A model generated the notes under the pieces. It saw only the letters and a list, made by a program, of their open reading frames with translations. It had not been told where the DNA came from and did not search any database. From Cornus controversa (taxonomy: Eukaryota; Streptophyta; Magnoliopsida; Cornales; Cornaceae), in assembly GCA_026545225.1 (NCBI GenBank), contig CM048845.1, positions 35,201,001-35,265,000 of the forward strand: DNA of 64,000 nucleotides. Reading direction: 5' to 3'. The position numbers were made by a program, and so were the translations under genes. This document shows positions 7,976 to 40,269 of this stretch, in pieces. Numbering within the stretch: position 1 is the stretch's first letter; each line of letters starts with the position of its first letter.

Positions 7976-8364
7976 GGTAAGTGATGCATGGCTACTTTTT
8001 GTTTATTCTCTCGCCATTTTTGATAGTTTTACAGCGGAATAAACATAGTTAGATCATGTTGGGGTGGATGGTTGCGATTGCGATGTCTGAATCGAGTTTT
8101 TGTGGGTTTCGGGGGGTAGGAATTCAAGCAGGAGTGGGATTTGGCATTTTCTTCGTTTCAAACGCTTAATGTACGGTGTGTAACCGCGATACCTTTGTTT
8201 CGGCTGCACCCGTTCACATTGCCTCTTCGAGTGCAATTTTTTTTGCATTTTTGTCAGTACCTTGGACTAGGACTACATTTTTATTTTTATTCTTTTAGTC
8301 TAGTAGTAGTTTAACTTTTTTCTTATTCATCTTTTATTTACGTACCTTTTGGAATCCAGTGCAG
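7976..8364 (+). other. Predicted 5'UTR intron of the env-like transcript
   Basis: Donor CACGAG|GTAAGT at 7976; acceptor after a pyrimidine-rich tract, TGCAG, ending at 8364. From the TATA box to the donor (7778-7975) there is no ATG, whereas the predicted intron starts with two ATGs and holds several more. After joining, the first ATG is the env-like start at 8379. C has the same sites (donor changed to GTAACT). D has a donor GTAAGT at 21574 and an acceptor TTGCAG at 21838 in the same relative places despite strong sequence divergence. I infer a real spliced leader. Confidence 0.7.
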
Positions 8365-8378
8365 ACTGTTCTGAGGCG

Positions 8379-9596
8379 ATGGCGAGAGTGAAAAACGCCG
8401 CCGGTGCTGTTCGTGACGTGCCCGGGCGAGCCTTCCCGTCCCAGAAGTTCCACCCGGAGCAGGTTTTTGACTTAGCGGAGTTTGAGAGGCGTCCCGACAC
8501 TGAGTGGACAGTTGCCGAGCTCAGGAGGCGTCGCCTCGACCGGCTATGTGTGCCTCCCACCGACGTAGCACACGAACGCCTAGTGCAGGTCTTTTACGAG
8601 CATATGACCTACTCCTGCACAGCGCCAGATACACTTGAGACTACCGTGGCCACTGTCACGATCATGATTACGCCAAGCCGGATTGCTCATATGCTCGGCA
8701 TTCCTCACCAGCAGCCGCCGGACATGGTTGGCCCGGACGGTCAGCCACTCTATAGTGCCGTGCTCCCAGCAGATACCACGCTCTTCTCGATAGTGATGGA
8801 CATGTGTGGCGGGGCGTTTACCACGCCCAACCACAACTGCACGTCCAAGTCGATGTGCCCGAGCAGATATTGGTTCCTGGACACCGTTCTCCTCAAGAAC
8901 GCGTGTCTGTTGCAGCACGTGGCCGAGCGCAGGGGTGACCTCCTCCGTTGCCTCTATGCTTTCCATACGGGCGCTTGGTTTTCTGTCCCATCGCTTATCT
9001 GGGGGCAGATGCACAAAGTTTGGGATGGCCTCGTCAACAAGAGGAAGAGGAGAGCAGCGAGTTGGCGGCTTCCCTTTCCATTCCTGATCGCTGCTTTTCT
9101 CAGCAGTGCCAGTATACCGGTCAGTCGGACTGACATTCAGTTGGCACCGCCCACCCGCTTCACATCTACTCAGTGGGATCGGGTGAGGCGACACTTAGAG
9201 CGACAGGACCATCAGGGTGATCCACCAGACGATGTAGATATGGATGCCCCAGTGGAGACGGATGAGGGAGAGCCAGCAGGGGCTGAGTTAGAGGATGAGG
9301 AGATGGAGGAGGAGGAGATGGATGTCGCTGCAGAGCGGCATGATATCTTAGCGACAGGCTATTCCTGCCTGGCGGCTGACGTAGAGCGGCTCCAGCAGGG
9401 TTTTGACGAGCACGTCCAGGTGACGCAGAGTCAGCTGGCGGGTATTCGGACGGACATTTCTTCTCTGGTGCAGGGCCAGAGAGCGATCTTAGATGAGTTC
9501 CAAGCCTTCCGGCAGGATCTGCAGTTCCTGTTCGCAGGTCGAGCCTCCACCTCCACTTCTGCTCCCACCGAACCACCACCACCTGCCCTCGAGTAG
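8379..9596 (+). CDS. Element A env-like ORF (third ORF of Athila-type element)
   Basis: An intact 405-residue frame starting MARVKNAAG at 8379. The ATG is supported by element D, which has an aligned MAHVKN start right after its own splice acceptor. Residues about 60-250 form a folded-looking domain (LVQVFYEHM near 68, WFLDTVLLKNAC, the CLYAFHTGAWFSVPSLIWG stretch, and a hydrophobic FPFLIAAFLSSASIP segment). Its pattern resembles the domain called 'putative plant transposon protein' found in Athila third ORFs. Then come a strongly acidic run (about 284-322), a coiled-coil stretch (about 326-384) and a Pro/Ser/Thr tail. I see no signal peptide and no convincing membrane anchor, so a retroviral-type envelope role is not supported. 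Its base composition is far more GC-rich than gag-pol. C and D carry broken homologues. Function unknown. Confidence 0.8.
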   Translation: MARVKNAAGAVRDVPGRAFPSQKFHPEQVFDLAEFERRPDTEWTVAELRRRRLDRLCVPPTDVAHERLVQVFYEHMTYSCTAPDTLETTVATVTIMITPSRIAHMLGIPHQQPPDMVGPDGQPLYSAVLPADTTLFSIVMDMCGGAFTTPNHNCTSKSMCPSRYWFLDTVLLKNACLLQHVAERRGDLLRCLYAFHTGAWFSVPSLIWGQMHKVWDGLVNKRKRRAASWRLPFPFLIAAFLSSASIPVSRTDIQLAPPTRFTSTQWDRVRRHLERQDHQGDPPDDVDMDAPVETDEGEPAGAELEDEEMEEEEMDVAAERHDILATGYSCLAADVERLQQGFDEHVQVTQSQLAGIRTDISSLVQGQRAILDEFQAFRQDLQFLFAGRASTSTSAPTEPPPPALE

Positions 9597-9862
9597 CTGC
9601 ACTTTATTCACCTTTTATGCTTTACTTTCTGTATTTTTCTTTCTTTATTTTTGATAGGCCATGTTGGTCATGTTTAGTTTCTTTTTGCGTATTCCACCTA
9701 CATGTACACTTTGTACTGAAACGCATTTTCATCTGTATGGAATACATTTATATTTTCTTTTATGACATGTGTTATCTTTACTTTCTTTTCTTTTTGCTTT
9801 TCATCAATTTATCTGTTCTCTATACTTTGACTATGTATGTAGTACCACTTGTCTAATTGTTA

Positions 9863-10018
9863 TATGCGATTCAGTTGATGATTTCCGTTTATTACCGCCT
9901 GGTTTTAATTCCCAATACTGTTGAGATTGCTTCAACACAGTATGGCGGTAATAAACAAAGGCAGCCCCTTTGCGTGCTATACGTTAGCGCGCCTGGATAG
10001 TCAATATCTTGTCGCATA
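9863..10018 (+). other. Candidate structured RNA element, three stems
   Basis: The outer stem pairs TATGCGA (9863-9869) with TCGCATA (10012-10018). It encloses stem 1, GTTTATTACCGCC (9887-9899) with GGCGGTAATAAAC (9944-9956), capped by an inner ATACTG/CAGTAT stem, and stem 2, GCGTGC (9972-9977) with GCGCGC (9987-9992) around the loop TATACGTTA. Element D (41100-41260) keeps the fold while changing several base pairs on both sides. C has the same fold at 25304-25459. It would lie in the 3'UTR of both the genomic and the env-like RNA. Confidence 0.7.
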
Positions 10019-10289
10019 GACCTCTTAGACAATTGGGAAACACCAGTTCAGACCATTAGATATACAGTGATATTGGCATTGTCTGTTTGTGCGTAATTAT
10101 TTCATTTTGTTCTATTTATCTACTTTTTGTTCCTTTTAATGCTCGTGGTATCCAGTTGGTATTCTGTGCAGGTTTTTCTTATTTACAGGATGACCGCCGC
10201 AGTGGAATACCATTTTTCTCGCCTTCAGCCATCCCGGTAACTTCTTTCCTTGTTCTTCTTGTCCAAACATTGAGGACAATGTTGCATAT

Positions 10290-10302
10290 AAGTTTGGGGG
10301 TG
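10290..10302 (+). other. Internal (second) polypurine tract
   Basis: AAGTTTGGGGGTG, identical to the 13 bases at the 3' LTR edge, preceded by the TTGAGGACAATG block. It lies 1.1 kb upstream of the LTR. The same duplicate occurs in C (25020-25032) and D (41551-41563). It could act as an extra plus-strand primer; this is inferred. Confidence 0.7.
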
Positions 10303-10743: not shown

Positions 10744-10923
10744 TAAAAAGAGAAAAATATGCAATAAGCCTTCTCACTAAATAAACCGGATTTCTATGCC
10801 TCAAAGCAGGAAATATTTGTGTAAAAGTGTGTAAGGTTGAGCAGTAATAAGCGGGTGGCTTACTTACGCTCATCGCCTTGTAAGCTCGGTTATTTAGTCC
10901 GAGGGGTGCTTCTTCACCTAATG

Positions 10924-10945
10924 CCCTAAAACCAATTGATTTGGG
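10924..10945 (+). other. Conserved hairpin CCC-AAA/TTT-GGG in 3' region
   Basis: CCCTAAAACC can pair back with the TTTGGG side. In C (24398-24419) the stem is longer (AACC with GGTT), and in D (42146-42167) it is AATC with GATT, a paired change. The flanks (GGGAGTCA, CTACATGG) are conserved down to element E (36486-37895 region, minus strand). Confidence 0.5.
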
Positions 10946-11415
10946 AGTCATTGGCCCAATGCCGCTACATGGGCTTGCAAGAAAGCAAAAAGAGCTAAGC
11001 ATTGCACGGTCATCCGCACATGAGCAATCATGAATGTTTTGTGATAATGAAACAGCCGTGTTGAGCATTTTCAATGAGTTTTTCTCTTAAAAACAGATTT
11101 GTTCGTTTTCTTCTCCAAATATGACAAAAGCCACGCGTTAGAATGCATGTTCACTTTTCAAAGAGGATTTTGGGGTTGGAATTGTTATAGTGTTCGGGCT
11201 GGCCAGTATGTGGGGACTGTCGTTCATTTATAGCTTGTGAAAGTCCATTTTTGCTAATGACCACATAGTTCTGTAATACTTGTTGCATTTGCCAATTGTG
11301 AAATGAATGGATGAGCGCCCTTTATCTAGTTGATGACTGAGCATGATTAAACTTTTGTATAAGATAGTTGACTTCATTTTTGTAATATTGTATTGCTAAG
11401 GGACTAGCAATATGT

Positions 11416-12848: not shown

Positions 12849-14160
12849 GTAACTATTGGTTTAACTCCTTAGAGCCCAATTTCATCCACTCATGGGGGGA
12901 AATGCACCATGCATTCCTAGAAAAATACTTCCCAATGGGAAAGACAAGTGATATTTGGTGAACAACCACTGGATTCACTCAACATGACCAAAAATAATTT
13001 CATGAAACATGGGAAAGATTGAAAGAACTTTTAAGGTCATATCCACACCATGCTATCCCAAAGTGGTAACTAGTGCACAGTTTCTATGATGGGTTGAGTG
13101 ATCAACATAGGCAAATGGTAGGTTCCTCTTGTGGAGGAAAATTTCTTCTTAAGAGTCCCGATGAGGCATGGAGACGTTTTGAGAGCCTAAGTGAAAATTC
13201 ATCTCAACGCTCTTCCTCTCGAAAGGGTAAAAGCACCCAATCTAGTAAAGGAGTGTTTGAGTTATCAAGGTCAGATGTGGTTGTCATGCAAGTAGAGACC
13301 CTTACTCAAAAAATTGACTAACTCATGAAGAGTGGGTTACCTACTACTAGCCAACCTATTCCAAATTAGGATTGGTGTTGGTTTTGCTATAGTACTTCAC
13401 ATTATGTGCGAGATTGTTTTATGACCGGTCAATGTCCCGATTATACTCAAGAGCAATCGAATGCCATGTATTCTAAACCAATAATGATCCATAGTCAAAT
13501 ACATACAATCCTGGTTACAATAATCATCTTGTATTCTCTTGGAAATCTCAAGAACCAAGTCCATCTTATCAGGGGAAAAATTCCTACAATTCCCAATCTC
13601 AACAGCCTCAATATAGGCCGAGTCCTTAACCATATCATCAAAAATCTAATTACCAAATTCCACTACCATCTCCTCCGAGAAGCCAAGACTTTGAAGAAAG
13701 AGTGCTAAGCAATCTTAAGTCTAACACCCACTTATTGTAGTTCCATTCTTAATCAATTTCTAAGCTTGAAGCCAATGCTCAATCTATGGCAAGACTAGAA
13801 GCTCAAATAGGGCAGCTCACTAATGCCTTGAATAGAAGAGTGGAAGGAAAGTTGTCAAGTCGACTGGTGGTGAATCCTAAGGGTGTTCATGTGATTGATG
13901 ATCCTTCGTCTTCATCTTATGATGCTCCTCCTGAGCAGGTGCAATCAATCACCACCCTAAGGAGTGGTAAAGTCATAAACTCCAAAGTTGAGCAAGAAAG
14001 AAAGGAAACCATTGAGCATCCTAAAAATTCAAAAGATTCCCTTATAAATCCAAATGTGAACAAAATCTCTAAAAATCCAAAGATAAAATTAACTGAAGTT
14101 GTATCATCACCCACTCCAAAATGTGACACATCATTTAAGCCTCCAATTCCCTTTCCTCAA
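12849..14160 (+). pseudogene. gag: Element D gag (3' part)
   Basis: The capsid domain resumes at the segment matching NSLEPN...HSW of A, right at the edge of A's LTR. Then come QLV/FYDGLSDQHRQM, a CCHC-like knuckle region near 13380-13420, a coiled coil with MARLEAQIGQLTNALNRR near 13786-13830, and the linker up to [14 protein letters not shown] at the protease border. The frame carries several stops that match CGA, CAA or CAG in the relatives F and A, for example TGA near 12959 and TAA near 12994. It is a non-functional remnant that dates D as older than A. Confidence 0.9.
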
Positions 14161-15860
14161 AGATTGAAGGAACCTTCTCATTTTGGGAAGCAAGGAGAGA
14201 AAATCCAAGACATGATAGAAATTTTTAAACAAGTGAAAATCAATCTCCCTCCCCTTGATGCTATTAGGAAAATTCCCTCCTATGTTAAATACTTGAATGA
14301 CTTATGCACTCAAAAGCGTAAATCCAAGAACAATGTTCCTAGGAAAGTCCTTTTAACCGAGCAAGTGAGTTTCATCTTTCAGCACCAAGCCCCTCCTAAA
14401 TTCAAAGATCTAGGTACCCTAACTATCTCGTGCACCATTGGTAACCACGAATTTGAAAAGGCGCTTCTTGATCTAGTGGCTAGTGTCAACTTGCTTCCCT
14501 TCTCAGTATATAAGCAATTAGGTTTGGGGAAACCTAAGCCCACCACCATAGTGTTGCAACTCGATGACCGATCGGTGAAGCAACCACGTGGCATCATTGA
14601 AGATGTGATAATTTAAGTGAATAAGTTTTATTTTCTAGTGGGTTTCATAGTCCTTGATACAAAACCTGTCCAAAATCCTTTTAGACATATTCCAATAATT
14701 CTAGGTCGTCCATTTCTAGTTACGGCGAATGCTTGCGTTAATTGCAGCACTGGAGTAATGGATATCTCTTTTGAGAATATGAAAGTTCGATTAAACATCT
14801 TCAATGCCTCTCACCACCCATCCAACGATGAAAGTGAATGCTTTTGCGTTGATGTATTAGAAGATCTAGTCCAGGAAGCACTGCCCTCCATTCTTTCGAA
14901 AGATCCTCTCGAGGTGTGCTTGAGCCACTTCAACTGTGATGACTATGACATTGAGCAATCTATAAGTGAAGTCAATTCACTACTTGATGCCACAGCTATC
15001 ATGAATTCACCTAAATGGAGAGCACCAAGAGAACCTTTGCCCCCTTTGTCAAATGCTTCCCAAACTACTTCTTTAGTATCCCCTCCACAACTTGAGCTTA
15101 TGCCTTTACCAGCTACTCTCAAGTATGCGTTATTAGGATGCAATAAAACCCTCCCAGTCATCATTGCTTCCAATCTTACTAATGAACAAGAGAGGGAACT
15201 CCTTAAAGTGCTAGAAGAGCATAAGGAAGCCATAGGATGGAGTGTTACTAATCTAAAGGGAATAGATCCTTCCATATGTATGCACCGCATACATTTGGAA
15301 GAAGATGCAAAGACCTCACGAGAGGCACAACGTCAATTAAATCAAAATATGAAAGATGTTGTAATGAAGGAGGTTATGAAATTTCTAGATGTGGGAATCA
15401 TTTACCTCATCTCAGATAGTAAGTGGGGTAGCCCTACTCAAATGGTACCTAAGAAATCAGGTATCACTGTGCAACCAAATGACATGGGTGAGTTAATTCC
15501 GCAGCGCACCACTACAGAATGGAGAGTGTGCATAGACTATAGGAAACTTAACTTAGCAACTAGGAAAGATCATTTTCCACTTCTATTCATTGATCAAATC
15601 CTAGAGAGGCTAGCTAGTCAAAGTTTCTTTTATTTTCTATATGGATATTCTGGATATAATCAAGTGGCTATAGACCTGAGAGACTAAGAGAAAACCACTT
15701 TCACATGTCCATTCGATACATTCGCTTATAGACGCATGCCTTTTCGGTTATGGTGTCTATCTTTTCTAACTTGGTGGAAAACTTTTTGGAAGTATTCATG
15801 GATGATTTTTCTATCTTTGGACCTTCATTTGAATCTTGTCTCCATAATCTGTCTCGTGTT
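14161..15860 (+). pseudogene. pol: Element D pol, protease and first half of reverse transcriptase
   Basis: Collinear with A pol residues 1 to about 580. The protease site reads LDLVAS, so the glycine of LDLGAS is lost. The RT core runs through CIDYRKLN and the region matching LDGYFGYNQ. Stops at 14614-14616 and 15685-15687 replace CAA codons of A. About 40 bp are missing near 15750 before the active-site block, which still reads FMDDFSIFG. The frame ends at the GTGTT target duplication of the H solo LTR and resumes at 18806. Confidence 0.92.
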
Positions 15861-18800
15861 TGATTCGTGGGTGAGTGTGGTGATCGGCATTGAATGTTAC
15901 GCATTTTAGCCTCTTAAATTATGTATTTTATTCTCTTAGTGATAGATTATTTTGTTATTTTACTTTGTTTTAGTGTTTTCTGTATTTTTAGGGCCTTAAT
16001 GATTATTTCAGTTAAAACCGTGATTTTGGACTTTTAAAGATGACATCCAAGATGGTTAGATGAAGCCTACTTCAAGGATATCCATTCAAACATTTATTTC
16101 AACTCAAATCAGCCCAAGAAAGAGGTCCAAGAGAATTACAGCTGCTTAAGAAGGTTTCGGGCCTGAAGCCCAAATCTGCGCATAATACAGTCTTAATCCC
16201 GTTTTGGAAAACGGACCAGAAGTCTTATTTCGGAGCCTCAAATTGACATAATTCTCGCGTAGGGTTGAACAAAATTCGATTCTGCACACTTTTGTATTTC
16301 ACGCAAAATTCCGTAAATCGGACTTCTAGTGGGTCAAAAGTTGGGCCGAAGTCAGCAGAAAAAACCCACCTGATTAGTGCTGCGGGAAACCCCAATCTAT
16401 TCCTAATTGGATTAGGACTTTGATGTATTCTCTTGGCTATTAAAGTGATGAATTGGGGCTGTATTGGGGAGGCTTAGCAGCATCTTTGAAGAGCTTTTGG
16501 AATGGAGAATCATTGGAGAACAAGGCGTATCATGAGCGGCTAGTTCAGCCACCAGGGTTTTGATGGAGCCCTAACTAAACATCACTGGTTTGACTGTTCT
16601 AATTATTGGGGATTTTTGTATTCATTCATAGATTGTGTAATTTAGAGGATTCTTATTATAGAATTGAGCAATAAAAGTCTTATAAATTCAGTTTCAATGA
16701 TTTCTTATCTTGTCTTAGATATTTGATTGTTGTTATTGAACTCGTCCCTCTTATTTTCTGTGATCATGAGAGTGATTATTACACAATGGTTTTCACTGAA
16801 TATATCATTAAAGCTTTGATGGATTATGCCTAGAGAAGATGAACCATACTGCACCCTAGATTAGAGTAGTTAGGCAGATGGCCCATGTTAATCGAAGATT
16901 GTCCATGGCTTAGCCTTAATCATATGTTATCTTCTTGACGGATGGAGGTGAGCTTGTAGCCACCAACACCACTTATGCATGATATGATGCCCCATAGTTA
17001 CTTCAATTGACCATTGATTGTGACGTTAGTGGTGAGATCAATTACCCTAGACTTATCTTATATTCTCTACACTCCTTAGTTTTTCTTGCTTTTGTTCAAT
17101 TACTTCATTAGTTAATTTAGAATTAAAAATTAGAATTTATTTTTTTCAAATTTAATTAGAATTAATTCCTTATATCCAACACAGTCAGACCACAGTCCCT
17201 GAGGTACGATACCCCTTCCTTTTGATAGCCCTATTCTGCAAGGAATTCGTTTTATTGCGAAGTGTGGTAATTTTTAATTGATATACTTTTTGAGTCACAC
17301 TCACACACAAATCATGTGGCTTAATAAGTGTATCAATTAAAAATTACCACACTTCACAATAGAACGAATTCTTTGCAAAATAGGGCTATCGAAAGGGGTG
17401 TCGAACCTCAGGGATTATGGTCTGATGAGTTGGATTACGGAATTAATTCTAATTAAACTTAAGAGAAAAGAATTCTGATTTTTAAACTAATTAAAAAGTA
17501 AAATAATATAAAACAAAGTAAATAAAGAGTGAATAAGATGAGATAAATTTAGGGTATTTGACTTCACCACTAACTCCATAATCAATGGTCAATTTAATCA
17601 ACTATGGGGGATTACGTTATGTATAAGTGGTGTTGGTGGCTACAAGCTCACCTTTATCCATCAAGAAGATAACATATGATTAAGGCTAAGTTATGGACTA
17701 TCTTCGATTGGCATGGGCCATCTGCCTAACTACTCTAATCTAGGGTGCAGTATGGTTCATCTTCTCTAGGCATAATCCATCAAAGCTTTTAATGATATAT
17801 TCAGTGATTACCATTATGTAATAATCGCTCTCATGATCACAGAAAATAAGAGAGATTGAGTTCAATAACAATAACTAAATATCTAAAACAAGATAAGAAA
17901 TCATTGAAACTGAATTTACAAGACTTTTATTGCTCAATTCTATAATAAGAATCCTCTAAATTACACAATCTATGCATGTATATAAAGGTCCCCATTAATT
18001 AAAGCAATCAAACCATTGATTCTTTGTCAGGGCTACATCAAAACCCTAGTGGATGAACTAGCCGCTCATGGTAGAAGAAGAAGCTTCAACTGTTGAGGAA
18101 GAAAGCATCATCTTCATGAATTATGCATATGACTTCGTTCTCCAATGGCTCTGCAAAGTATGTCTTCTGTTCTGTCCAAAGCTCTTTCAAACTCTCCAAT
18201 CTCTGCTATTACCCCCAACTCAGCCTCCAATTCTTCACTTTATGCCCCAAGAGAATACACCAAAGTCCTAATCCAATTAGGAATTAATTAGGTTTTCCTG
18301 CAGCACTAATCAGGTGGGTTTTTCCAACTGACGTTCGGCCCAACTTTTGACCCACTAGAAGTTTGATTCATGGAATTTTTGTGAAATACAAAAGTGTACA
18401 GAATCAAATTTCGTTTAACCCCATGAATATTAAGTCGATTTGAGGCTCAAAAATAAGACTTCTGGTCCATTTTCCAAAATGGGATTAAGACTGTATTATA
18501 CGCAAATTTGGGCTTCAGGCCCGAAACCTTCTTAAGCAGTTGTAATTCTCTTGGACCTCTTCCATGGGCTGATTTCAGTTGAAATAAATGGTTGAATGGA
18601 TTTCCTTGATGTAAGCTTCATCTAACCATCTTCGATGTCTTCTTTAAAAGCCCAAAATCATGGTTTTAACTGAAATAATCATTAAGGCCCTAAAAATATA
18701 GAAAACACTAAAACAAAGTAAAATAACAAAATAATCTATCACTAAGAGAATAAAATACATAAGTTAAGAGGCTAGAATGCGTAACATTCAACGCCTATCA
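15861..18800 (-). repeat. Outer H solo LTR (interrupted), TSD GTGTT
   Basis: A single H-family LTR in minus orientation: TGATTCGTG... at 15861-15880, then after an insertion 17320-18800 ending CCTATCA. GTGTT flanks it on both sides (15856-15860 and 18801-18805). Removing it restores D pol continuity. No internal sequence remains, so it is a solo LTR left by recombination between two LTRs. The H LTR at 46656-48163 is the same family with its primer site attached. Confidence 0.88.
15881..17314 (+). repeat. Inner H solo LTR, TSD TGTGG, inside the outer H LTR
   Basis: 1434 bp from TGATCGGCATTG to CACACAAATCA, opposite in direction to its host LTR. TGTGG is duplicated at 15876-15880 and 17315-17319. 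The two H LTRs together form a ~1.4-kb near-perfect foldback. Confidence 0.88.
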
Positions 18801-18805
18801 GTGTT

Positions 18806-20920
18806 CTTACATGATGTCAAGAGACAAATCTCATCCTCAGTTGGGAAAAGAGTCATTTTATGGTTCAAGAAGGCATTATCCTAGGGCATATTGTGTCTAA
18901 GAGAGGAATAGAGGTTGATAAAGCCAAGGTTGAACTTATTTCCAAACTTCCTCCACCATCTATGGTGAGAGAAATTCGTTCATTCCTTAGGCATGCAGGG
19001 TTTTACCGTCGCTTCATCATGGATTTTAGCAAGATCTCTCAACCTCTGTGTCGCCTTTGTGAAAAAGAGTCTTGCTTTACCTTTGATGCAGCATGCCTTG
19101 AAGCTTTTGAGAAGCTACGCACGTTACTTACACAAGCTCCAATACTCATTCCTCCAAATTGGGCTCTCCCATTTGAGGTGATGTATGATGCATTCAATTA
19201 TGCAATGGGAGTAGTTTTAGGAAAACGTGTAGATAAATTACCTCATGCAATCTATTATGCAAGCAAAACCCTTTCTGAAGCTCAAATAAATTATACCATG
19301 ATAGAAAAGGAATTGCTTACTGTGGTGTATGCCCTAGACAAATTTTGAGCTTATCTCTTAGGTTCAAAGGTCATTGTCTATTCTGATCATGCTGCCCTCT
19401 GGCATCTTTTGGCAAAGAAAGACACCAAACCCCGACTGATCCAATGGATACTCTTGTTGCAAGAGTTTAATTTTGAGATTAGAGATAAAAAAGGGAACAG
19501 AAAATGTCGTGGCAGATCACCTCTCTAGGATTGTCATTGAAACTCTAAATGATTCCCTCCCAGTTTGTGAATCCTTTATGGATGAACAAATTTTTGTAGT
19601 CTCTCAAGAGAGCATTCTTTGGTACGCGAACATTGTCAAGTTTTTGGCAATCGAAAAAATTCTGTCCTCTTGGACCAAGCAAGAAAAGGATCATTTCTTC
19701 TCCCAATCTCGATCATATTATTAGGATGATCCTCAACTTTTCAAATATTTTCCAGACCAATTAATTCAGAAATGTGTCCCCGACATTGAATTCTAAAGCA
19801 TTTTAAAATTTTGTCATACACTTGCTTGTGGAGGACATTTTACTGCAAAGAAAACCGCAGCAAAAATTCTTCAATACTGGTTTTTCTAGCCAACACTTCA
19901 TCGGGACGCATATTCGTTTTGCTGCTCTTGTGAGTGATGCTAGCGCCTCGGTGCAATGTCCCACAAAGATATGATGCCTCTTAACCCCATTCTTATCGTT
20001 GAGATATTTGACGTTTGGGGCATCGATTTCATGGGACCCTTTCCACCGTCCTTTGGTCATGAGTACATACTTGTGGTGGTCGACTACGTATCTAAATGGA
20101 TAGAGGTTGTGGCTACCAAGTCCAATGACCACGCAGTCGTGGTCAAGTTTATACAAGCTAATATATTTAGTTGATTTGGCATGCCACGAGCCCTCATCAG
20201 TGATGGAGGTAAACATTTCTGTAATCGGTTCCTCCGAACCCTTCTCACCAAATACTCCGTCACACATAAAGTAGCCACCCCCTAACATCCTCAACCAGTG
20301 GACAAGTGGAAGTATCCAATTGGGAAATAAAGAATATACTTGAAAAAATAGTTTGGCCTGACTGAAAAGATTGGTCATTATGCTTAAATGATGCACTATC
20401 GGCCTACCGAACTGCGTATAAAACTCCCATTGGAATGTCGCCTTACCAGTTGGTATATGGAAAAGCTTGCCATCTTCCGGTTGAATTAGAGGACAAGGCT
20501 ACGCGGGCCACTAAAGCATTCAACTTTGACATGAAATTAGTCGGCTCAAATAGAAGGCTTCAAGTTAATGAATTGGAAGAATTGCGACATTATACATATG
20601 AGAACGCTAAAATCTATAAGGAAAGATATAAGGCCTTTCATGAACACAATATTTGAGTCAAAACATTTTCTCTGGGATAGAAGGTATGGTTGTACAATTC
20701 ACGGCTCCGTTTGTTCCCTGAAAAACTCCGCTCCCATTGGGATGGCCCATGTCTGGTATATTCTGTTGCTCCTCATGGAGCAGTGGAATAAAAGGACCCA
20801 AAGGATGGCACATTTTTCAAAGTCAATGGACAATGGTTAAAACCATGTGTGGATGACCAAGCTAGAATGGAGTATATGGATGTCATCAATTTGATAGATC
20901 CCATCTATTTTAACTCATAA
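18806..20920 (+). pseudogene. pol: Element D pol, end of RT, RNase H and integrase
   Basis: It resumes in the RT palm ([12 protein letters not shown], near 18840), continues through an RNase H whose catalytic CDAS is changed to YDAF, and then integrase with WGIDFMGPF near 20017. It ends at TAA (20918-20920), aligned with the end of A pol. Stops and frame shifts occur near 19346, 19480, 19724, 19795, 20175 and 20655. Several are TGA or TAA where A has CGA or CAA. It is not functional. Confidence 0.92.
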
Positions 20921-22063: not shown

Positions 22064-22494
22064 TGTTCGACGTGCAAAACGAGATAAAATAATATGGAAT
22101 AATGTCGTTGTTGTTTTACACCTCGACAAAAAAAGAATTTATAAAACCCTACAAATACTCTACTAAAATTAGTAAAGTGGTGAGTAGGGGTCGAACCCAC
22201 AGAGACTGCATTGGTTGTGTTGTTAAGTTATCAAGATCTTGTCTAATTTAATTGAAAGAGAATTTGTTTTATTTTTAAATTAAGTTGCTGAAATTAAATA
22301 ACATAAATAAATGATGGATACTGGAGATAGAAGGTCCTGGGAATTGACTTCACCACTAACCTTCTAACAATGAAAGTTGTACTAATTTGGGACGTTTAAT
22401 CTATGCATTCAGAAAAGAATGGCTACAAGCCAAATTCAGTTCTATCAAGAGGATTCATTCAACATATAATTAAGCATAACTTGTCTTCGCTAAG
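22064..22494 (-). repeat. Element E 3' LTR, distal fragment
   Basis: It matches 39062-39494 closely; its outer edge reads TGTTCGACG on the plus strand. It is cut at 22494 by element C, whose CTAAG duplication is 22490-22494 and 35467-35471. The 39-kb LTR gives the uninterrupted empty-site sequence. Confidence 0.95.
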
Positions 22495-23914
22495 TGATGT
22501 GGTCGGAACTAAATTATATTGTAAGCTTAATTTTGCCCTTTTTATCAAAATATAATTTAACCACTCGCAAGAGCACGAATCTTTGTAGATAAGGTTCTAT
22601 ATAGAGGGTATCGATCCCACGAGGACTAGTCGTTAATTGTCATAAAGAAAGATTAATTCTACTTTAATTCTAAAAACAGGTTTTTGGTTTTGTGTTTAAA
22701 ACTATTGCGTAAATGAAATGACGATAAAATTAAAGAGTAAAGTTGGGAGAGAGAACTAGGGTTGGTTTCCACCACTAGCCATTCACATGTTCATAAGTGT
22801 AGCAAGCATGGGATTCATTAATTAAATGCCTAACAATGTCATTAGGCTTGTGACCTCAATGACATATCAAAAGATCAATGTGTGTGCTAACCTATCATAA
22901 TCCATCTTCAACAAGCATAGCTCTTCAACCTAACTAACTACCTAATTACTCTACTCTCTACGTAAACACTACATGCATCCAAACTACCTTGTCTTGGCAT
23001 GGTCTATACAAACTAGCATCACACATTCATTTAAACACCATTATCTAGCCATCATTTGCACTTCTTGTGGAATATGCAAATGTTGTGCATTCAAGTGACA
23101 AAACCTACTCTAAGACAAGAATAAATTCCATATCAAATGAATATATATAAGAAATGTATTTGTGTACATAATCACTAGGCTAAATAATCAACATTTAATT
23201 ACAAATCCCTAAGAGCTACAAAGATGAACAAGTTTACATGGCTAGGGGTTGAAACCAACACCCTAGTAGAAGAGTTAGTTGCTCATGGTTGCCTTGCACC
23301 CTTCCATTGATGAAGAGAATGAAGCTTCTTGGTCTGGTTCAGCTTTTCTCTTCCTCTCCCGAAGGTCTCTCTTTTAGTCTTCTGATGTGTATGTTGAGAG
23401 CTATGAGATATGTGGCTTTTGGTGCTTTTTGTATGCTTTTTGGCTCCTTTGGGCCCACCATATATATATATATATATCATTATATATATCTCTTGTATCA
23501 AGAAGGCCCCCAAAAGTCTTGTTCAAGTCAGACAATCCCCCTAAGTCGTGCAAAAAGGGGGATTTTGTTGCAAGTGGGAGAGCTGGTGAGCAAGTGGCCA
23601 AGTGGGCTCTGCAACATTTCGATTGATCGAAATTGCCTTTCGATTGATCGAGATTTCGATCAATCGAAATGAGATTTCGATCAATCGAAATCTCGATTGA
23701 TCGAAATCCACATCTCGATTGATCGAGATGCCTTGGCAACATTTTCTGATTTCATCTCTTGACTGCAGAAAGCTTCCAACTTTGCTCCATTTACTCCAAT
23801 ACCTGCAAAACATCAAAAACACAAAAATACCGTAAACATATCTCGGTAAACGCAAAAACGGAACTAACATATGCAATAAAGAGGGTTCAAATGCATAGAA
23901 TTGAACACTTATCA
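22495..23914 (-). repeat. Element C 3' LTR, 1420 bp
   Basis: It runs from TGATGTGG (plus-strand left edge) to CTTATCA, the reverse complement of TGATAAG...CCACATCA. It contains the TCGATTGATCGA array (about 23617-23728) and the AT-repeat TATA region (about 23459-23490). It differs from the other C LTR by few bases and in AT-repeat length. Confidence 0.97.
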
Positions 23915-23927
23915 CACCCCCAAACTT
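23915..23927 (-). other. Element C 3' polypurine tract
   Basis: The plus strand shows CACCCCCAAACTT, directly internal to the LTR; minus-strand reading is AAGTTTGGGGGTG. Confidence 0.9.
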
Positions 23928-25725
23928 ACATATTGCTAGTCCCTTAGCAATACAATATTACAAAAATGAAGTCAACTATCTTATACAAAAGTTTAATCAT
24001 GCTCAGTCATCAACTAGATAAAGGGCGCTCATCCATTCATTTCACAATTGGCAAATGCAACAAGTATTACAGAACTATGTGGTCATTAGCAAAAATGGAC
24101 TTTCACAAGCTATAAATGAACGACAGTCCCCACATACTGGCCAGCCCGAACACTATAACAATTCCAACCCCAAAATCCTCTTTGAAAAGTGAACATGCAT
24201 TCTAACGCGTGGCTTTTGTCATATTTGGAGAAGAAAACGAACAAATCTGTTTTTAAGAGAAAAACTCATTGAAAATGCTCAACACGACTGTTTCATTATC
24301 ACAAAACATTCATGATTGCTCATGTGCGGATGACCGTGCAATGCTTAGCTCTTTTTGCTTTCTTGCAAGCCCATGTAGCGGCATTGGGCCAATGACTCCC
24401 AAACCAATTGGTTTTAGGGCATTAGGTGAAGAAGCACCCCTCGGACTAAATAACCGAGCTTACAAGGCGATGAGCGTAAGTAAGCCACCCGCTTATTACT
24501 GCTCAACCTTACACACTTTTACACAAATATTTCCTGCTTTGAGGCATAGAAATCCGGTTTATTTAGTGAGAAGGCTTATTGCATATTTTTCTCTTTTTTT
24601 TTTTTTTTTTCTTTAACAACAACCGGAAGAACTTATTCTTTAAGTTGTTCTGATAAAAACTGAAATTTTCAAAACTTCTCCCTCAGACTTATACCCCACA
24701 ATTTAAACTGCATGTGTGCGAATTTGTGCGGTTAAGGACAAATTTAGGGCGAGAACTGTACGTGCTCGAATTTGGACAATAATGTAGACCGTTCTAGCCT
24801 ACTATAAAGCTTGCAAAAGTGCGGGTATTTACAATGTTAAAGTTCTTAACTACCTGCTGCATTTACCTCGGACATTTATTCGAATGATCTTCCTTTAAAA
24901 AGCAAGACATCATAGCAAGCATGCAAAAATATCAAAGAAAAAAAAAAAAAACTGCTCTACAATGACACTCAATATAATGACTGAACATTGCATGCATATG
25001 CAAGTGGTATAGCATACCGCACCCCCAAACTTATATGCAACATTGTCCTCAATGTTTGGACAAGAAGAACAAGGAAAGAAGTTACCGGGATGGCCGAAGG
25101 CGAGAAAAATGGTATTCCACTGCGGCGGTCATCCTGTAAATAAGAAAAACCTGCACAGAATACCAACTGGATACCACGAGCATTAAAAGGAACAAAAAGT
25201 AGATAAATAGAACAAAATGAAATAATTACGCACAAACAGACAATGCCAATATCACTGTATATCTAATGGTCTGAACTGGTGTTTCCCAATTGTCTAAGAG
25301 GTCTATGCGACAAGATATTGACTATCCAGGCGCGCTAACGTATAGCACGCAAAGGGGCTGCCTTTGTTTATTACCGCCATACTGTGTTGAAGCAATCTCA
25401 ACAGTATTGGGAATTAAAACCAGGCGGTAATAAACGGAAATCATCAACTGAATCGCATATAACAATTAGATAAGTGGTACTACATACATAGTCAAAGTAT
25501 AGAGAACAGATAAATTGACGGAAAGCAAAAAGAAAAGAAAGTAAAGATAACACATGTCATAAAAGAAAATATAAATGTATTCCATACAGATGAAAATGCG
25601 TTTCAGTACAAAGTGTACATGTAGGTGGAATACGCAAAAAGAAACTAAACATGGCCAACATGGCCTATCAAAAATAAAGAAAGAAAAATACAGAAAGTAA
25701 AGCATAAAAGGTGAATAAAGTGCAG
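23928..25725 (-). other. Element C 3' non-coding region
   Basis: Same order as in A: hairpin (24398-24419, with the palindrome AAACCAATTGGTTT), poly-T on plus (about 24593-24611), internal polypurine tract (25020-25032) and the three-stem fold (25304-25459; stem 1 arms 25366-25378 and 25423-25435). No credible ORF. Confidence 0.75.
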
Positions 25726-26949
25726 CTACTCGAGGGCGGGTGGTGGTGATGGTGGCTCGGTGGGAGCAGAAGTGGAGGTGGAGGCTCGACCTGCGAACAG
25801 GAACTGCAGATCCTGCCGGAAGGCTCGGAACTCATCTAAGATCGCTCTCTGGCCCTGCACTAGAGAAGAAATGTCCGTCCGAATACCTGCCAGCTGACTC
25901 TGCGTCACCTGGACGTGCTCGTCAAAACCCTGCTGGAGCCGCTCTACGTCAGCCGCCAGGCAGGAATAGCCCGTCGCTAAGATATCATGCCGCTCTGCAG
26001 CGACATCCATCTCCTCCTCCTCCATCTCCTCGTCCTCTGACTCAGCCCCTGCTGGCTCTCCCTCATCCGTCTCCACCGGGGCATCCATATCTACATCGTC
26101 TGGTGGATCACCCTGATGGTCCTGTCACTCTAAGTGTCGCCTCACCCGATCCCACTAAGTAGATGTGAAGCGGGTGGGCGGTGCCAACTGAATGTCAGTC
26201 CGACTGACCGGTATACTGGCACTGCTGAGAAAAGCAGCGATCAGGAATGGAAAGGGAAGCCGCCAACTCGCTGCTCTCCTCTTCCTCTTGTTGACGAGGC
26301 CATCCCAAACTTTGTGCATCTACCCCCAGATAAGCGATGGGACAGAAAACCAAGCGCCCGTATGGAAAGCATAGAGGCAACGGAGGAGGTCACCCCTGCG
26401 CTCGGCCACGTGCTGCAACGGACACGCGTTCTTGAGGAGAACGGTGTCCAGGAACCAATATCTGCTCGGGTACATTGACTTGGACGTGCAGTTGTGGTTG
26501 GGCATGGTAAACGCCCCACCACACATGTCCATCACTATCGAGAAGAGCGTGGTATCTGTTGGGAGCGCGGCACTATAGAGTGGCTGACCGTCCGGGCCAA
26601 CCATGTCCGGCGGCTGCTGGTGAGGAATGCCGAGCATATGAGCAATCCGGCTCGGCGTAATCGTGATCGTGACAGTGGCCACGGTAGTCTCAAGTGTATC
26701 TGGCGCTGTGCAGGAGTAGGTCATATGCTCGTAAAAGACCTGCACTAGGCGCTCGTGTGCTACGTCGGTGGGAGGCACACATAGCCGGTCAAGGCGACGC
26801 CTCCTGAGCTCGGCAACCGTCCACTCGGTGTCGGGACGCCTCTCGAACTCCGCTAAGTCGAAAACCTGCTCCGGGTGGAACTTCCGGGACAGGAAGGCTC
26901 GCCCGGGCACGTCACGAACAGCACCGGCGGCGTTTTTCACTCTCGCCAT
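25726..26949 (-). pseudogene. Element C env-like ORF, three nonsense codons
   Basis: Homologue of the intact ORF of A (8379-9596), near-identical and starting at the same ATG (26949). TAG at 26322-26320 and TAG at 26157-26155 stand where A has CAG, and TGA at 26127-26125 where A has CGA. One extra Ser-Pro pair lengthens the C-terminal Pro-rich tail. The domain, acidic run and coiled coil are otherwise kept. Inactive. Confidence 0.9.
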
Positions 26950-26963
26950 CGCCTCGGAACAGT

Positions 26964-27351
26964 CTGCACTGGATTCCAAAAGGTACGTAAATAAAAGATG
27001 AATAAGAAGAAAGTTAAACTACTACTAGACTAAAAGAATAAAAATAAAAATGTAGTCCTAGTCCAAGGTACTGACAAAAATGCAAAAAAAATTGCACTCG
27101 AAGAGGCAATGTGAACGGGTGTAGCCGAAACGAAGGTATCGCGGTTACACACCGTACATTAAGCGTTTGAAATGAAGAAAATGCCAAATCCCACTCCTGC
27201 TTGAATTCCTACCCCCCGAAACCCACAAAAACTCGATTCAGACATCGCAATCGCAACCATCCACCCCAACATGATCTAACTATGTTTTTTCCGCTGTAAA
27301 ACTATCAAAAATGGCGAGAGAATAAACAAAAAGTAGCCATGCATCAGTTAC
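26964..27351 (-). other. Predicted 5'UTR intron of element C env-like transcript
   Basis: Minus-strand donor GAG|GTAACT at 27351 and acceptor TGCAG ending at 26964, 388 nt, in the same place as in A. The donor has G-to-C at position +5, which may weaken it. Confidence 0.6.
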
Positions 27352-27550
27352 CTCGTGAGGAAGAAGATGAACGGCTCAACCGAAGAAAACTCCACGCGCA
27401 GCCGCGAAGAGAAGATCGCGCAGATGCTAGCGGCGGATCGAACTGCGTCGGATGGCGGCGGATGATCGGGAATGCTTGGAGAAGGCTTGGATCGCACGGA
27501 GGAAGAGAAGAAGTCAGATGGTCTTTTAAAATGGGAGGGAAGCCCAACGG

Positions 27551-28119
27551 TTTAAATAGATTTTCGACTCACGTGCAGGCTCCGCGTGCATTTCGATCAA
27601 TCGAAATTTCGATTGATCGAAATCTTGCTTCGATCAATCGAAACTAACTTCGATGGATCGAGATTGTCTCTTCGATCAATCGAACATTCCTTCCCTGAAT
27701 CACATTTTTACTTCGATCAATCGAACATTTAATTGATGCAATCGAACTTTTATTTCGATCAATCGAAATCCCATTTCGATCAATCGAAAGTTTCGATCGA
27801 TCGAAGACCTATCGAAGTGCAATCGAAGAATACCACCTCTCGGGACTTTGGACTTGGCAAATCTCTGCAATTTTTCGATCAATCGAAACCAAAATTTCGA
27901 TCAATCGAAATTTTCGATTGATCGAAATCTTGGTTTCGATCAATCGAAATGCTCAAAAACAGTCAATTTAAAATATGCTTCAGGGACTTGGATATTGGGG
28001 AATTAGATACTACATTGCTTAGATACAAACCTACTTTGGATTAAAGGGACACCATGGAAGCTTGATAGCTACCATGGCTTCGCCACCTTACACGTCTATG
28101 GCGCGACGTCCGGATCGGC
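27551..28119 (-). promoter_or_regulatory. Element C internal promoter region
   Basis: The mirror of 7187-7777: TATTTAAA (27558-27551), CACGTG (27570-27575), about 14 TCGATCAATCGA-type motifs (27592-27952) and the AAAGTCCCGAGAGGTG block (about 27814-27853). Promoter role inferred. Confidence 0.6.
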
Positions 28120-31100
28120 TCACGAGTCAAAATACACGGGATCCGTCAAAGTGACGATATCCACGTATTCGGTGGTGACTTGGTCATCCACGCACACTTT
28201 TAAGCGCTGCCCGTTTACTTTGAATATCGAACCATCTTTCAAGTCCTTCAATTCCACCGCTCCGTGGGGAGCGACGGAATTAACCAAAAATGGACCATCC
28301 CAAAGGGAGCGAAGTTTTCCGGGAAACAAATGGAGGCGTGAGTTGTACAACCAAACTTTTTGGCCCGGCGAAAATGTTTTGACTCGAATATTACGATCAT
28401 GAAAGGCTTTGGACCTTGCCTTATAGATTTTTGCATTCTCATAAGCGTCATGTCACAATTCTTCCAATTCATTTAATTGAAGCTTTCGATTAGAACCGGC
28501 CTTTTTCATGTCAAAATTGAAGGTCTTGGTGGCCCACATAGCTTTATGCTCCAATTCAACCGGAAGATGGCACGCCTTGCCATAAACTAACTGATAAGGT
28601 GACATTCCAATGGGAGTTTTATATGCGGTTCGGTATGCCCATAATGCGTCGTTTAGTCACAATGACCAATCCTTCCGGTCAGGCCGAACAGTTTTCTGAA
28701 GAATGTTCTTAATCTCCCTATTGGATACTTCTACTTGGCCACTAGTTTGAGGATGGTAGGGGGTGGCTACTTTGTGTGTGACGGAGTATTTGAGAAGCAA
28801 GGTTCGAAGGAACCGGTTACAGAAATGCTTACCTCCGTCACTGATGATGGCCCGAGGCGTACCAAACCGGCTAAAAATGTTAGCTTGTATGAATTTAACC
28901 ACGACTGCGTGATCGTTGGTTTTGGTAGCAACGGCCTCTATCCACTTAGATACGTAGTCCACCGCCACAAGTATGTACTCATGACCAGTAGAGGGTGGAA
29001 ATGGTCCCATGAAGTCAATGCCCCACACATCAAATATTTCAATGACAAGAATAGGGTTAAGAGGCATCATGTCCTTCCGAGACATCGCGCCGAGGCGCTG
29101 ACATCGCTCACAAGAGCGGCAGAATGAATATGCATCCCGATGAAGTGTCGGCCAGAAAAATCCGCATTGAAGAATTTTTGCTGCGGTTTTCTTAGCACTA
29201 AAGTGTCCCCCACAAGCGAGTGTATGACAAAATTTAAGAATGCTTTGGAATTCACTGTTGGGTACACACTTACGAATTATTTGATCGGGGTAGTATTTGA
29301 ACAATTGAGGATCGTCCCAATAATATGATCGTGATTGGGAGAGAAAACGATCCTTCTCTTGTTTGGTCCAAGAAGATGGTATTTTACCGGTTGCCAAATA
29401 ATTAACCACATCCGCATACCAAGGGATACTCTCTTGAGAGATGACAAAGAGTTGTTCATCCGGGAAGGATTCACAAACTGGAATGGAATTATGGAGGGAT
29501 TCAACAAGAATTCTAGAAAGGTGGTCAGCTACCACATTTTCAGTTCCCTTTTTGTCTCTAATCTCAAAATTGAACTCTTGCAACAAGAGTATCCATCGGA
29601 TCAACCTAGGCTTGGTGTCCTTTTTCGCCAAAAGATGCCGGAGGGCAGCATGGTCCGAATAGACAATGACCTTTGAACCTAATAAATAAGCTCAAAACTT
29701 GTCTAATGCAAATACTACCGCAAGCAATTCTTTTTCCGTTGTGATATAATTGATTTGAGCCTCGGAAAGGGTTTTACTTGCGTAGTAGATGACATGTGGC
29801 AGTTTGTCTACTCGTTGCCCTAAGACAGCACCCATGGCATAGTCGGATGCATCACACATAATCTCAAATGGGAGAGCCCAATTTGGAGGGATTAGAATTG
29901 GAGCGGTTGTAAGCATGGTGCGGAGTTTTTCAAAAGCGACAAGGCACGTTTCATCAAAGGTAAAGCAAGACTCTTTTTCAAGAAGGCGACACAAAGGCCG
30001 AGAGATCTTGCTAAAGTCTTTGATGAAACGGCGATAAAAGCCCGCATGCCCAAGGAATGAACGAATCTCTCTCACCGTTGATGGTGGAGGAAGTTTAGAA
30101 ATGAGTTCAACCTTGGCTTTATCAACCTCTATTCCTCGCTTAGACACAATGTGCCCTAGGACAATACCCTCTTGAACCATAAAGTGACTCTTTTCCCAAC
30201 TAAGAATTAGGTTGGTTTCTTGACATCGTTTGAGAACACAAGTTAGATTTTGGAGGCATGATTCATATGAAGGCCCAAAAACGGAAAAATCATCCATGAA
30301 CACTTCTAAGAATTTTTCCACCATGTTCGAGAAGATAGACATCATACACCATTGAAAAGTTGCCGGTGCATTGCACAACCCAAAGGGCATGCGTCTATAA
30401 GCAAATGTGCCGAAGGGACATGTAAAGGTGGTTTTCTCTTGGTCCCTCGGGTCTATAGCAACCTGATTATAGCCGGAATATCCATCCAAAAAGCAATAAA
30501 AGCTTTGCCCGGCCAATCTCTCCAATATTTGATCAATGAATGGGAGGGGGAAGTGATCTTTCCGAGTGGCTGAATTTAATTTCCTATAATCAATGCACAC
30601 TCTCCATCCTGTGGTGGTGCGTTGGGGAACTAATTCACCCTTATCATTAGGTTGCACCGTAATACCAGACTTCTTTGGAACCACTTGAGTGGGACTAACC
30701 CACTTGCTATCAGAGATGGGGTATATGATCCCCGCATCTAGTAACTTCACCACCTCCTTCATTACAACGTCCTTCATGTTTGGATTCAATCGACGTTGTG
30801 CCTCCCTTGAGGTCTTTGCATCCTCTTCCAAGTGTATGCGATGCATACAAACAGAAGGGTCTATTCCCTTAAGATCTACCACACTCCATCCTATTGCTTC
30901 TTTGTGCTCTTTGAGCACCTTTATGAGTTCCAATTCTTGATCATTTGTGAGATTGGAAGCAATAATGACTGGAAGGGTCTCATTTGTGCCCAAGAAAACA
31001 TACTTGAGTGTAGCTGGAAGAGGCTTGAGCTCAAGTTGTGGTGGGAAAATTAAAGAAGGAGTTTGGGGAGTTTTGGACAAAGGGGGCAAGGGTTCTCTCG

Positions 31101-31965
31101 GAACTCTCCACTTAGGCAAATCCATGACAGTATTAACATCGAGCATGGAATTGACTTCACATATGGATTGCTCAATGTCAAAATCATCATAGTTAAAATG
31201 ATTTAGGCATGCCTCTAAAGGGTCCTTGGAAAGAATAGAAGGAAGTGCTTCTTGAACAAGGTCTTCCACAACATCGACACAAAAGCACTCACTCTCGTCG
31301 TCGGATGTGTGGTGGGAAGCATTGAAGATGTTCAAGCGGACTTTCATATTCCCAAAAGAGATGTCCATCACTCCAGTACGGCAATTAACGCAAGCGTTTG
31401 CCGTGGCCAAGAATGGACGACCTAGAATGATAGGAATATGATGATTCGGATTTTGGACCGGGTCCGTGTCAAGGACTATGAAGTCCACCGGAAAATAGAA
31501 TTTGTCCACTTGAATGATGACATCCTCAATGATGCCACGTGGTTGCTTCACCGAACGGTCGGCAAGTTGCAACACAACCGTGGTATGCTTGAGTTCCCCC
31601 AAACCTAGTTGTTGGTAAACTGAGAATGGAAGCAAATTGACACTAGCCCCTAGGTCAAGAAGTGCTTTTTCAAAAGATTGATTTCCGATGGTGCACGAAA
31701 TGGTCGGAGCACCCGGATCTTTGAATTTAGGAGGGGCTTGGTGTTGGAAAATGGAGCTTATGTGCTCAGTTAAGAGGACTTTCTTAGGAACATTATTCCT
31801 AGATTTGCACTTTTGAGTGCATAAGTCCTTCAAGAATTTCGCATAAGAGGAAATTTGTCGAATAGCATCAAGGAGAGGGAGATTGATCTTTACTTGTTTG
31901 AAGATCTCCATCATGTCTTGGATTTTCTCTCCTTGCTTCCCGAAATGAGAAGGTTCCTTCAATCG
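28120..31965 (-). pseudogene. pol: Element C pol
   Basis: In frame with gag through an intact CGA codon (31965-31963), which is the codon that became TGA in A. Protease (LDLGAS), RT (FMDDF), RNase H (CDAS) and integrase ([15 protein letters not shown]35E spacing) are all recognisable. Three TGA codons stand where A has CGA: 29694-29692 (RNase H), 28659-28657 and 28455-28453 (integrase C-terminal part). The end aligns with A at the DPVYFDS terminus. RT is intact, but RNase H and integrase are cut off. Confidence 0.94.
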
Positions 31966-33753: not shown

Positions 33754-34015
33754 GCATTAACAATTGAACAGCACCTCTACACACAAAGTAACAATAATAT
33801 ATACAAAAGAATGTGAATGATTCAAACCACCAATTTTTGAAGTTATACTCACAAAGGGTTCCAATTTGAATTCTTCTAGATGCCCGCAATGTGGTATACC
33901 TAAAATCAAGAAGTTTGAGATATAAGAACAAGATATATACAAAAAGAATGAAAGAATTTCTAGCCTAAGAATTAAACCAGATTTAATCTTCCAATGGCGA
34001 CAATTAAACCGTAGT

Positions 34016-34032
34016 CCCCGGCAACGGCGCCA
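34016..34032 (-). other. Element C primer binding site, tRNA-Asp type
   Basis: The plus strand shows CCCCGGCAACGGCGCCA, i.e. TGGCGCCGTTGCCGGGG on the element strand, six bases from the LTR. Confidence 0.92.
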
Positions 34033-34038
34033 AAATTT

Positions 34039-35466: not shown

Positions 35467-35471
35467 CTAAG

Positions 35472-36485
35472 CATGGCCTATGCATCTGACTAACTAATGA
35501 TATGATAACCCATATTCGCTTAGTACGAATTATAAAAACTCTAAATTGAATGATCTGTGAAAACTATTGTATAACCTGTCTTAACAAAATCACAGAAGTT
35601 GAAAAGAACTAAACCCTAATCACTGCAAACATGCATTCATTCTACAAGAACAAAAGTAAATATGCAATGAAATAATCCATTCAAATTAAAACTAACAGCA
35701 CAGCTGTTGTTTATGTCTTGGTTATACAATCAATGCAAAAAATAAATAATTCCCAAATTAATATACAAGCTAATACATTGAAAGACAGGTTAGGGTTACA
35801 TCACTTCCCCGGAATGGTGTTTAGTTGCTCATGATCGGAGGTCCAAGCTTGAACGATGATGAAGTCGCCATCGTCTTGCCTGTATCGTCACGAATCGCCT
35901 CTGTATATCTCTCTCTGCTTCCCCCCTCCAGAATACCCTAGTTTTTCTTCCTTTCATCGTTTTTACTTTGCGAAAACAAACCTACGGGACACCTAGCCTT
36001 CCCAAAGTGGCAAGTGCGCATAAGAAAATGGCACTTGCTCCTCACAAAGTGGCATTTGCGCCCAAAAAGTGGCAGCTGCGCAAATAGGGCAGAAAGTTGA
36101 TGAAAACGTCCGTTTTAGGAAATTTTCGTGAAATATGAAATTGTGCAGAATTGAATTTCCTTCAACCAACGCTGAGTTTGTGCAGAATTGAATTTCCTTC
36201 AACCAACGCTGAGTTTGGGTTGTTTTGACAATCGTGTACGGAGATATGGTCTGAATACCAAAGCGAGTCCAAGACTTTTTAGGCCTGAATTGGCCCAATC
36301 TTCAATGTGAATAGGCCTAACACCATCTGTAGCCCGATTGCACCATTATTAATTAGAATTATCCTTAACCACCTAAAATTCTGAAAAAGATTAAAATTAT
36401 TAATAAAAATATGAAATAAATATTACTAAGACACTAATTCATATAATTTTAAGGGCATTGAATATGCAATATTCATTACTTATCA
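35472..36485 (-). repeat. Element E 3' LTR, proximal fragment
   Basis: It continues the LTR broken at 22494 and ends in TTACTTATCA before the polypurine tract. It holds a run of AAGTGGCANNTGCGC-like direct repeats (36004-36083) and two tandem 37-bp units (36143-36179, 36180-36216). It keeps about 240 bp that are absent from the other E LTR. Confidence 0.93.
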
Positions 36486-39059: not shown

Positions 39060-39061
39060 TT

Positions 39062-40264: not shown

Positions 40265-40269
40265 CAGGT

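Follow-up and report, generated by a model that had tools for sequence, protein, structure and literature searches.

Does the 3′ part of an Athila-type retrotransposon carry a folded RNA that selection has kept and, if so, what might such a fold do? The question arises from some 230 bases close to the 3′ end of one element in the window, the 64,000-nt stretch of Cornus controversa DNA analysed here. An earlier note had proposed a covarying multi-stem RNA fold in Athila at this place, and the fold z-scores and compensatory changes described below support a structured RNA on which selection has acted. The stretch appears to be kept as folded RNA, since the bases that are predicted to pair change together between two diverged copies.

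Host elements and location of the conserved block

The element that holds the first copy (element A) is laid out as gag, pol, env-like frame, RNA element, ~1.4 kb of 3′ non-coding sequence, PPT and 3′ LTR. It has Retrotrans_gag, RVT_1, RNase H and integrase domains and LTRs of about 1.42 kb. With gag, pol, an env-like ORF after pol, a long 3′ non-coding region and long LTRs it shows the features of the Athila lineage of Ty3/gypsy, to which we take it to belong, in part on the ORF likeness described in one paper. The env-like frame matches Transposase_32 with 28.4 bits, below the curated Pfam cut-off of 45, and similarity to Transposase_32 has also been described for an Athila ORF in the accessible text of one report (PMC11728184). 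The elements and copies are as follows.

8310–9596, plus strand: env-like reading frame of element A, open for 428 aa between two stops (Transposase_32, E 1.8e-6)
9822–10053, plus strand: structured RNA element, copy A, whole conserved block (MFE −76.8, z −6.06)
25270–25500, minus strand: copy A2, 99.7% identical to A over 297 nt (model R1, 192 bits)
41061–41292, plus strand: copy D, diverged, 82.8% identical to A over 233 nt (MFE −63.0, z −5.16)
22064–40264, minus strand: element E, a non-autonomous relative whose 3′ LTR contains A2 (TSD ACCTG and PBS; gag remnant only)

Element A2 (22495–35466) is inserted in E and flanked by a 5-bp TSD, CTTAG. Copy D represents the 3′ part of the older element F/D, which has its gag/pol at about 12856–20917. 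F/D is split by E within its env-like gene and E is in turn split by A2, which gives a three-level nesting over 12856–42640. As F/D was broken by insertion, the changes in D presumably include decay after the break.

The RNA element starts ~230 nt past the env-like stop (9596), and the 3′ LTR follows at about 11429. The earlier note had placed the fold in the env-like 3′ region; the element lies ~230 nt beyond the env-like stop codon and not inside env. Within the block, 193 of 231 aligned columns are identical between A and D (82% with gaps counted). The corresponding numbers are 124 of 215 for the upstream spacer, 125 of 205 for the downstream flank (54–55% for the flanks with gaps counted) and 90 of 191 for the end of the env-like frame. 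The edges of the BLAST block (9822–10052) coincide with the outermost stem (9826–10052). Four stretches measured farther downstream show identity in 73–79% of the aligned columns. Among 230-nt windows across the 3′ region (gaps counted, median 70%) the element ranks first with 82%, followed closely by a window at 10760 with 81%; such near-equal conservation elsewhere in the 3′ domain counts against reading the fold as a cis-RNA.

Two further features were noticed in the 3′ non-coding domain. Extra PPT-like copies, AAGTTTGGGGG, occur at 10269–10302, at 41530–41563 and on the minus strand at about 37520–37680; they adjoin ATTGAGGACAAT in A, D and E, lie ~1.1 kb ahead of the true PPT/LTR junction in A and D, and are possibly a second plus-strand primer site. 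A second conserved block is located at 10900–11010, in D at about 42120–42230 and on the minus strand of E at about 37110–37000. As it is retained by E, this second block is a better candidate for a cis copying signal than the RNA element.

Stability and anatomy of the fold

Both copies fold more stably than their dinucleotide shuffles. The 221-nt RNA of copy A reaches −73.7 kcal/mol (z −6.05) and the 201-nt RNA of copy D −53.9 kcal/mol (z −5.68), with 0 of 200 shuffles as stable in either case. With the outermost stem included, the values are MFE −76.8 and z −6.06 for A (9822–10056) and MFE −63.0 and z −5.16 for D (41061–41294), again equalled by 0 of 200 shuffles each. A coarse scan with 200-nt windows, a step of 100 and 30 shuffles per window gave its lowest z (−4.58) among 35 windows in the 3′ part of element A at 9800–9999. 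The same scan of element D (28 windows) gave no peak at the RNA element, where the windows were out of register and the best z was −1.9; other D windows reach −3.2.

The consensus fold of A and D has an energy of −47.2 kcal/mol and a z of −7.3 (200 column shuffles, lowest −34.5). Its structure conservation index of 0.74 is high (mean of 200 column shuffles 0.51) but within the shuffle range (maximum 0.75), which weighs against the cis-RNA reading. The consensus structure costs ~20 kcal/mol compared with the best fold of A and ~23 compared with D's own best, in part because pairs present in one copy only are left out; the cost is a further point against the cis-RNA reading. From the outside inwards, the fold of copy A consists of the following parts; the mean pair probabilities were computed on a stretch that excluded P0.

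9826–9830 with 10048–10052, plus strand: P0, outermost stem; D's fold also has an outermost stem
9845–9856 with 10025–10036, plus strand: P1, outer stem (mean pair probability A 0.86, D 0.98)
9863–9870 with 10011–10018, plus strand: P2, closing stem (A 0.99, D 0.71; weakest pair in D 0.27)
9873–9886 with 9995–10009, plus strand: P3, inner interrupted stem (A 0.70, D 0.07)
9888–9955, plus strand: stem 1, arms 9888–9899 and 9944–9955, apical part variable (A 1.0, D 0.97); arms in copy D 41129–41140 and 41184–41195
9957–9971, plus strand: small hairpin AAAGG/CCUUU, supported in A only (A 0.93, D 0.03)
9972–9992, plus strand: stem 2, with 8 bp in A and UACGU as its loop at 9980–9984 (five consensus pairs, A 1.0, D 0.84)

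According to these predictions P1, P2, stem 1 and stem 2 are probably present in both copies. The stem arms, their coordinates and the base changes given in the earlier note were all found in place. Its description of stem 2 as 6 bp with an unchanged 9-nt loop was right about the invariance and wrong about the size: the stem has 8 bp and a 5-nt loop, UACGU, and the loop and three further closing pairs are all invariant. A three-way junction, as drawn before, is not established, since D's own fold disfavours P3 and the small hairpin, both of them strong in A, and pairs the 5′ strand of P3 with the small-hairpin region instead. With the additional hairpin at 9957–9971, the fold of A has a four-way junction. 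The failure of P3 and the small hairpin to be kept in D's fold also counts against the cis-RNA reading.

Compensatory changes and strand

When the fold of A, computed without D, was used as the frame for D, 53 of its 72 pairs were unchanged, 6 were changed on both sides with pairing kept, 6 were changed on one side with pairing kept, 6 were broken and 1 was gapped. Random placement of the substitutions yields 1.2–1.9 double-changed kept pairs (P 0.0004–0.002 across both null models and both positions of the gap) and 14–16 broken pairs (0–1 of 20,000 draws as low as the 6 found). When D's fold served as the frame, 48 of its 67 pairs were unchanged, 6 double-changed and kept, 5 single-changed and kept, 6 broken and 2 gapped; an alternative gap placement gives 7 double and 4 single kept changes. 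Here 0.9–1.3 double changes (P ≤0.00015) and 13–15 broken pairs (P 0 to 0.002) are expected, and for both frames the P values are optimistic, because the nulls treat substitutions as independent and the changes in stem 1 are clustered.

Three of the six double changes in the frame of A fall in stem 1, two in stem 2 and one in P1. From A to D, stem 1 shows two changes of C-G to A-T and one of C-G to T-A. A fourth pair goes from C-G to a T-G wobble if the one-base gap of D sits after the arm; MAFFT places this gap within the arm, and neither placement affects the three double changes. In stem 2, two pairs change from G-C to A-T and one from T-G to T-A, and a new C/A mismatch breaks another. In P1 one G-C pair became T-A, and A2 has an A/C mismatch at that pair.

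We compared the element with 80 overlapping local control windows (40 per fold) that were taken from the same A/D alignment and did not touch it. Double-changed kept pairs numbered at most 3 in controls with A folds and 4 with D folds, compared with 6 in the element. The softer measures separate less well: the fraction of pairs kept was 0.91 against a control maximum of 0.85 for A folds and tied for D folds (0.88 against 0.88), and the fraction of changed pairs that still pair was 0.65 against 0.50 for A folds and 0.57 against a control value of 0.65 for D folds. That some D-fold controls equal or exceed the element on these measures is a point against the cis-RNA reading.

The fold comparison effectively involves two sequences, as A2 is a near-duplicate of A, and this lends some weight to chance, i.e. 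a stable fold shared by descent whose apparent compensation is luck. The excess of double changes, the low number of broken pairs in A's fold and the stability of each fold against all 200 shuffles argue against it, and we regard chance as decidedly improbable. The conserved RNA fold is in our judgement probably real.

Which strand folds is less clear-cut. Against 100 shuffles per strand, the consensus fold reaches a z of −7.7 in sense and −5.3 in antisense orientation, whereas for copy D alone the antisense strand (−60.2) beats the sense strand (−53.9). In A's fold, pairing in sense survives six one-sided changes, while of the six pairs broken in sense, five (four one-sided, one two-sided) would pair in antisense, so the pair-change count in A's fold alone does not decide the strand. 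The better antisense folding of D and these five pairs both count against a sense cis-RNA. Seven consensus pairs differ on one side only and are kept by G-U in sense RNA, although the consensus favours sense by construction. Most likely, the outer stems, stem 1 and stem 2 were kept by selection as sense RNA.

An inverted repeat at the DNA level, kept by template switching or a foldback-type insertion and without any RNA function, would likewise produce paired arms. The adjacent double changes in stem 1 may represent a single event, which weakens the cis-RNA reading, and their clustering fits one template switch; folding of the antisense strand is also in line with such an origin. The changes are, however, spread over three separate stems, the loops are conserved as well, and the seven one-sided differences are those that G-U keeps in the sense strand, with the reservation just given on the consensus. 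We consider a purely DNA-level origin improbable.

Distribution, possible roles and known systems

The window contains no match to the 4227 models of Rfam 15 at the gathering threshold, and a relaxed search of both copies gave seven matches, all below gathering with E of at least 0.42. ARAGORN found no tRNA gene in the window and so detected no tRNA-like fold. No matches were obtained in protein searches with the env-like frame and with the antisense frame over the element, in genome contigs searched with one DNA pattern, or in viral contigs searched with the env-like frame, an RT piece and two DNA patterns. Possible relatives on viral contigs were limited to four stretches with a common 19-mer and otherwise to a 35-nt match to D (83%, E 0.011 for the window); being without a match to R1, a model built from A and D, and of only short similarity, these stretches were treated as chance. 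A splice-site reading was also dropped: by eye, GTATGT lies just 5′ of the fold and TGCAG or TTTACAG 3′ of it, and TTTACAG is not kept in D. Among the literature matches listed, mostly from the open literature, no title or opening of an abstract named a comparable structured RNA from Athila, and the accessible text of PMC12218528, which surveyed structured RNAs across plant genomes in 2025, contains neither 'transpos' nor 'Athila'.

Copies A, A2 and D score 186–192 bits with model R1, which was itself built on A and D. Element E retains LTRs, the same PBS and PPT, a remnant of gag and, from the 3′ domain, the conserved end; its own sequence has no match to pol, the env-like sequence or the RNA element, and the best R1 score in 35400–40300 with filters off is 8.1 bits. 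Two contigs, L005 and L006, are 99.7% identical over 9 kb and carry an Athila-like gag-pol with pol pieces of 64% and 72% protein identity. Both stand in bacterial assemblies, those of Solirubrobacter sp. CPCC 204708 and Geminicoccus harenae CPCC 101083, which plant DNA has most likely contaminated. Neither contig has an env-like match at E up to 10 or an R1 match with default filters. With filters off, the best of five R1 matches in L005 6050–9848 (10.6 bits, E 0.03, 56 nt) was taken as chance. The fold and the env-like sequence are thus found together in two elements (A and F/D) and are both missing in two (E and L005/L006), a pattern that is suggestive of a link.

We tentatively propose that the block is a structured RNA element which acts in cis in an env-bearing subgroup of Athila and may serve as a host-protein platform for export or expression. 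In the full-length transcript it would form part of the 3′ non-coding sequence, and selection would have retained the outer stems, stem 1 and stem 2. Host proteins would dock on the folded domain and, much as with CTE and RTE, take the unspliced genomic RNA out of the nucleus or ensure its expression by other means. The analysis itself shows the predicted fold, its compensatory changes, its location and its absence from two elements in which no env-like match was found; protein binding, export and the env link are what we infer. Some post-transcriptional cis function is reasonably likely. RNA export in particular is doubtful; according to the accessible text of PMC12786077, introns are generally absent from plant LTR elements, which stands against it. 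Still more doubtful is the wider claim that this could be the first CTE/RTE-like cis RNA export domain in a plant LTR retrotransposon, tied to env and lost in env-less relatives.

Instead of export, the fold might control translation or RNA stability of the genomic or the env-like mRNA, for instance as a 3′ cap-independent translation enhancer or a decay-resistant structure. A multi-branched fold located in the 3′ non-coding part just past the env-like frame would suit such a role, but there is no Rfam match, the complementarity between loops and leader is not significant and no specific feature points to it; we consider it unlikely.

A role in packaging or dimerisation, named among other guesses in the earlier note, would mean that Gag binds the fold or that two genomes pair through their UACGU loops, which would select full-length RNA into particles. 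The fold is a folded cis-RNA of a retroelement, and the invariant apical sequence of stem 2 holds the self-complementary ACGU. However, four fold segments showed no significant pairing with the leader of A at 1271–1640 (P 0.24–0.45). The proposal is weakened further by the non-autonomous, TSD-flanked element E, which was copied and inserted with the same PBS and PPT but without the element and therefore speaks against a universal packaging or reverse-transcription signal, even if other signals or a helper could have served E. This role now seems quite unlikely.

The fold could also be a Dicer substrate that feeds 21–24 nt siRNAs from the Athila 3′ region, its structure being useful to the host or tolerated. 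The stems are interrupted and form no long duplex, and the element would presumably gain little from keeping a target of its own silencing. A putative siRNA854-like sequence lies elsewhere, at 9294–9314 (plus strand) and 26014–26034 (minus strand) with 2 and 3 mismatches, and falls, unlike the RNA element, in the Glu-rich end of the env-like frame. Hairpin-like folding of Athila6 transcripts is, on the other hand, one of three models for siRNA initiation in the accessible text of PMC3276544, in which siRNA854 dependent on the microRNA machinery was not found in wild-type inflorescences. We judge a Dicer substrate very improbable.

For the preferred reading of a cis-acting platform, the element offers a compact candidate with defined stems that is amenable to simple reporters.

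A position between env and the 3′ LTR is typical of CTE/RTE-type elements, and the structured RNA described here likewise lies between the env-like stop and the 3′ LTR. In constructs, the 226-nt RTE and the 173-nt CTE sat between the gene and the 3′ LTR (accessible text of PMC1363727). The CTE of simian type D retroviruses/MPMV is similar in being a compact cis fold of 162 or 173 nt near the 3′ end; it has the PPT directly 3′ and acts on unspliced RNA (accessible parts of PMC1363727 and PMC11379458). It differs in belonging to animal retroviruses and in its NXF1-binding loops, and for the element here no Rfam or other sequence relation was found. The RTE of mouse IAP (226-nt) and the MTE of MusD (412-nt) are comparable as structured elements of LTR retrotransposons (PMC1363727, PMC11379458 and PMC12786077, as far as accessible); they differ in that RBM15 is recruited by RTE, and that pseudoknot and kissing-loop motifs occur in MTE (PMC12786077, accessible text). 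Among plant elements, the siRNA854 'stem-loop' region of Athila6 is alike in lying in Athila transcripts 3′ of gag/pol (PMC3276544, in the text available). The non-coding motifs and inverted repeat of Sireviruses also provide a conserved folded motif in plant LTR elements, but these are Ty1/copia elements with a short inverted repeat at the PPT, whereas here a 230-nt multi-stem domain lies ~1.4 kb upstream (PMC2829016, accessible text). In location, size and multi-stem shape the element resembles CTE and RTE/MTE, a likeness and not membership.
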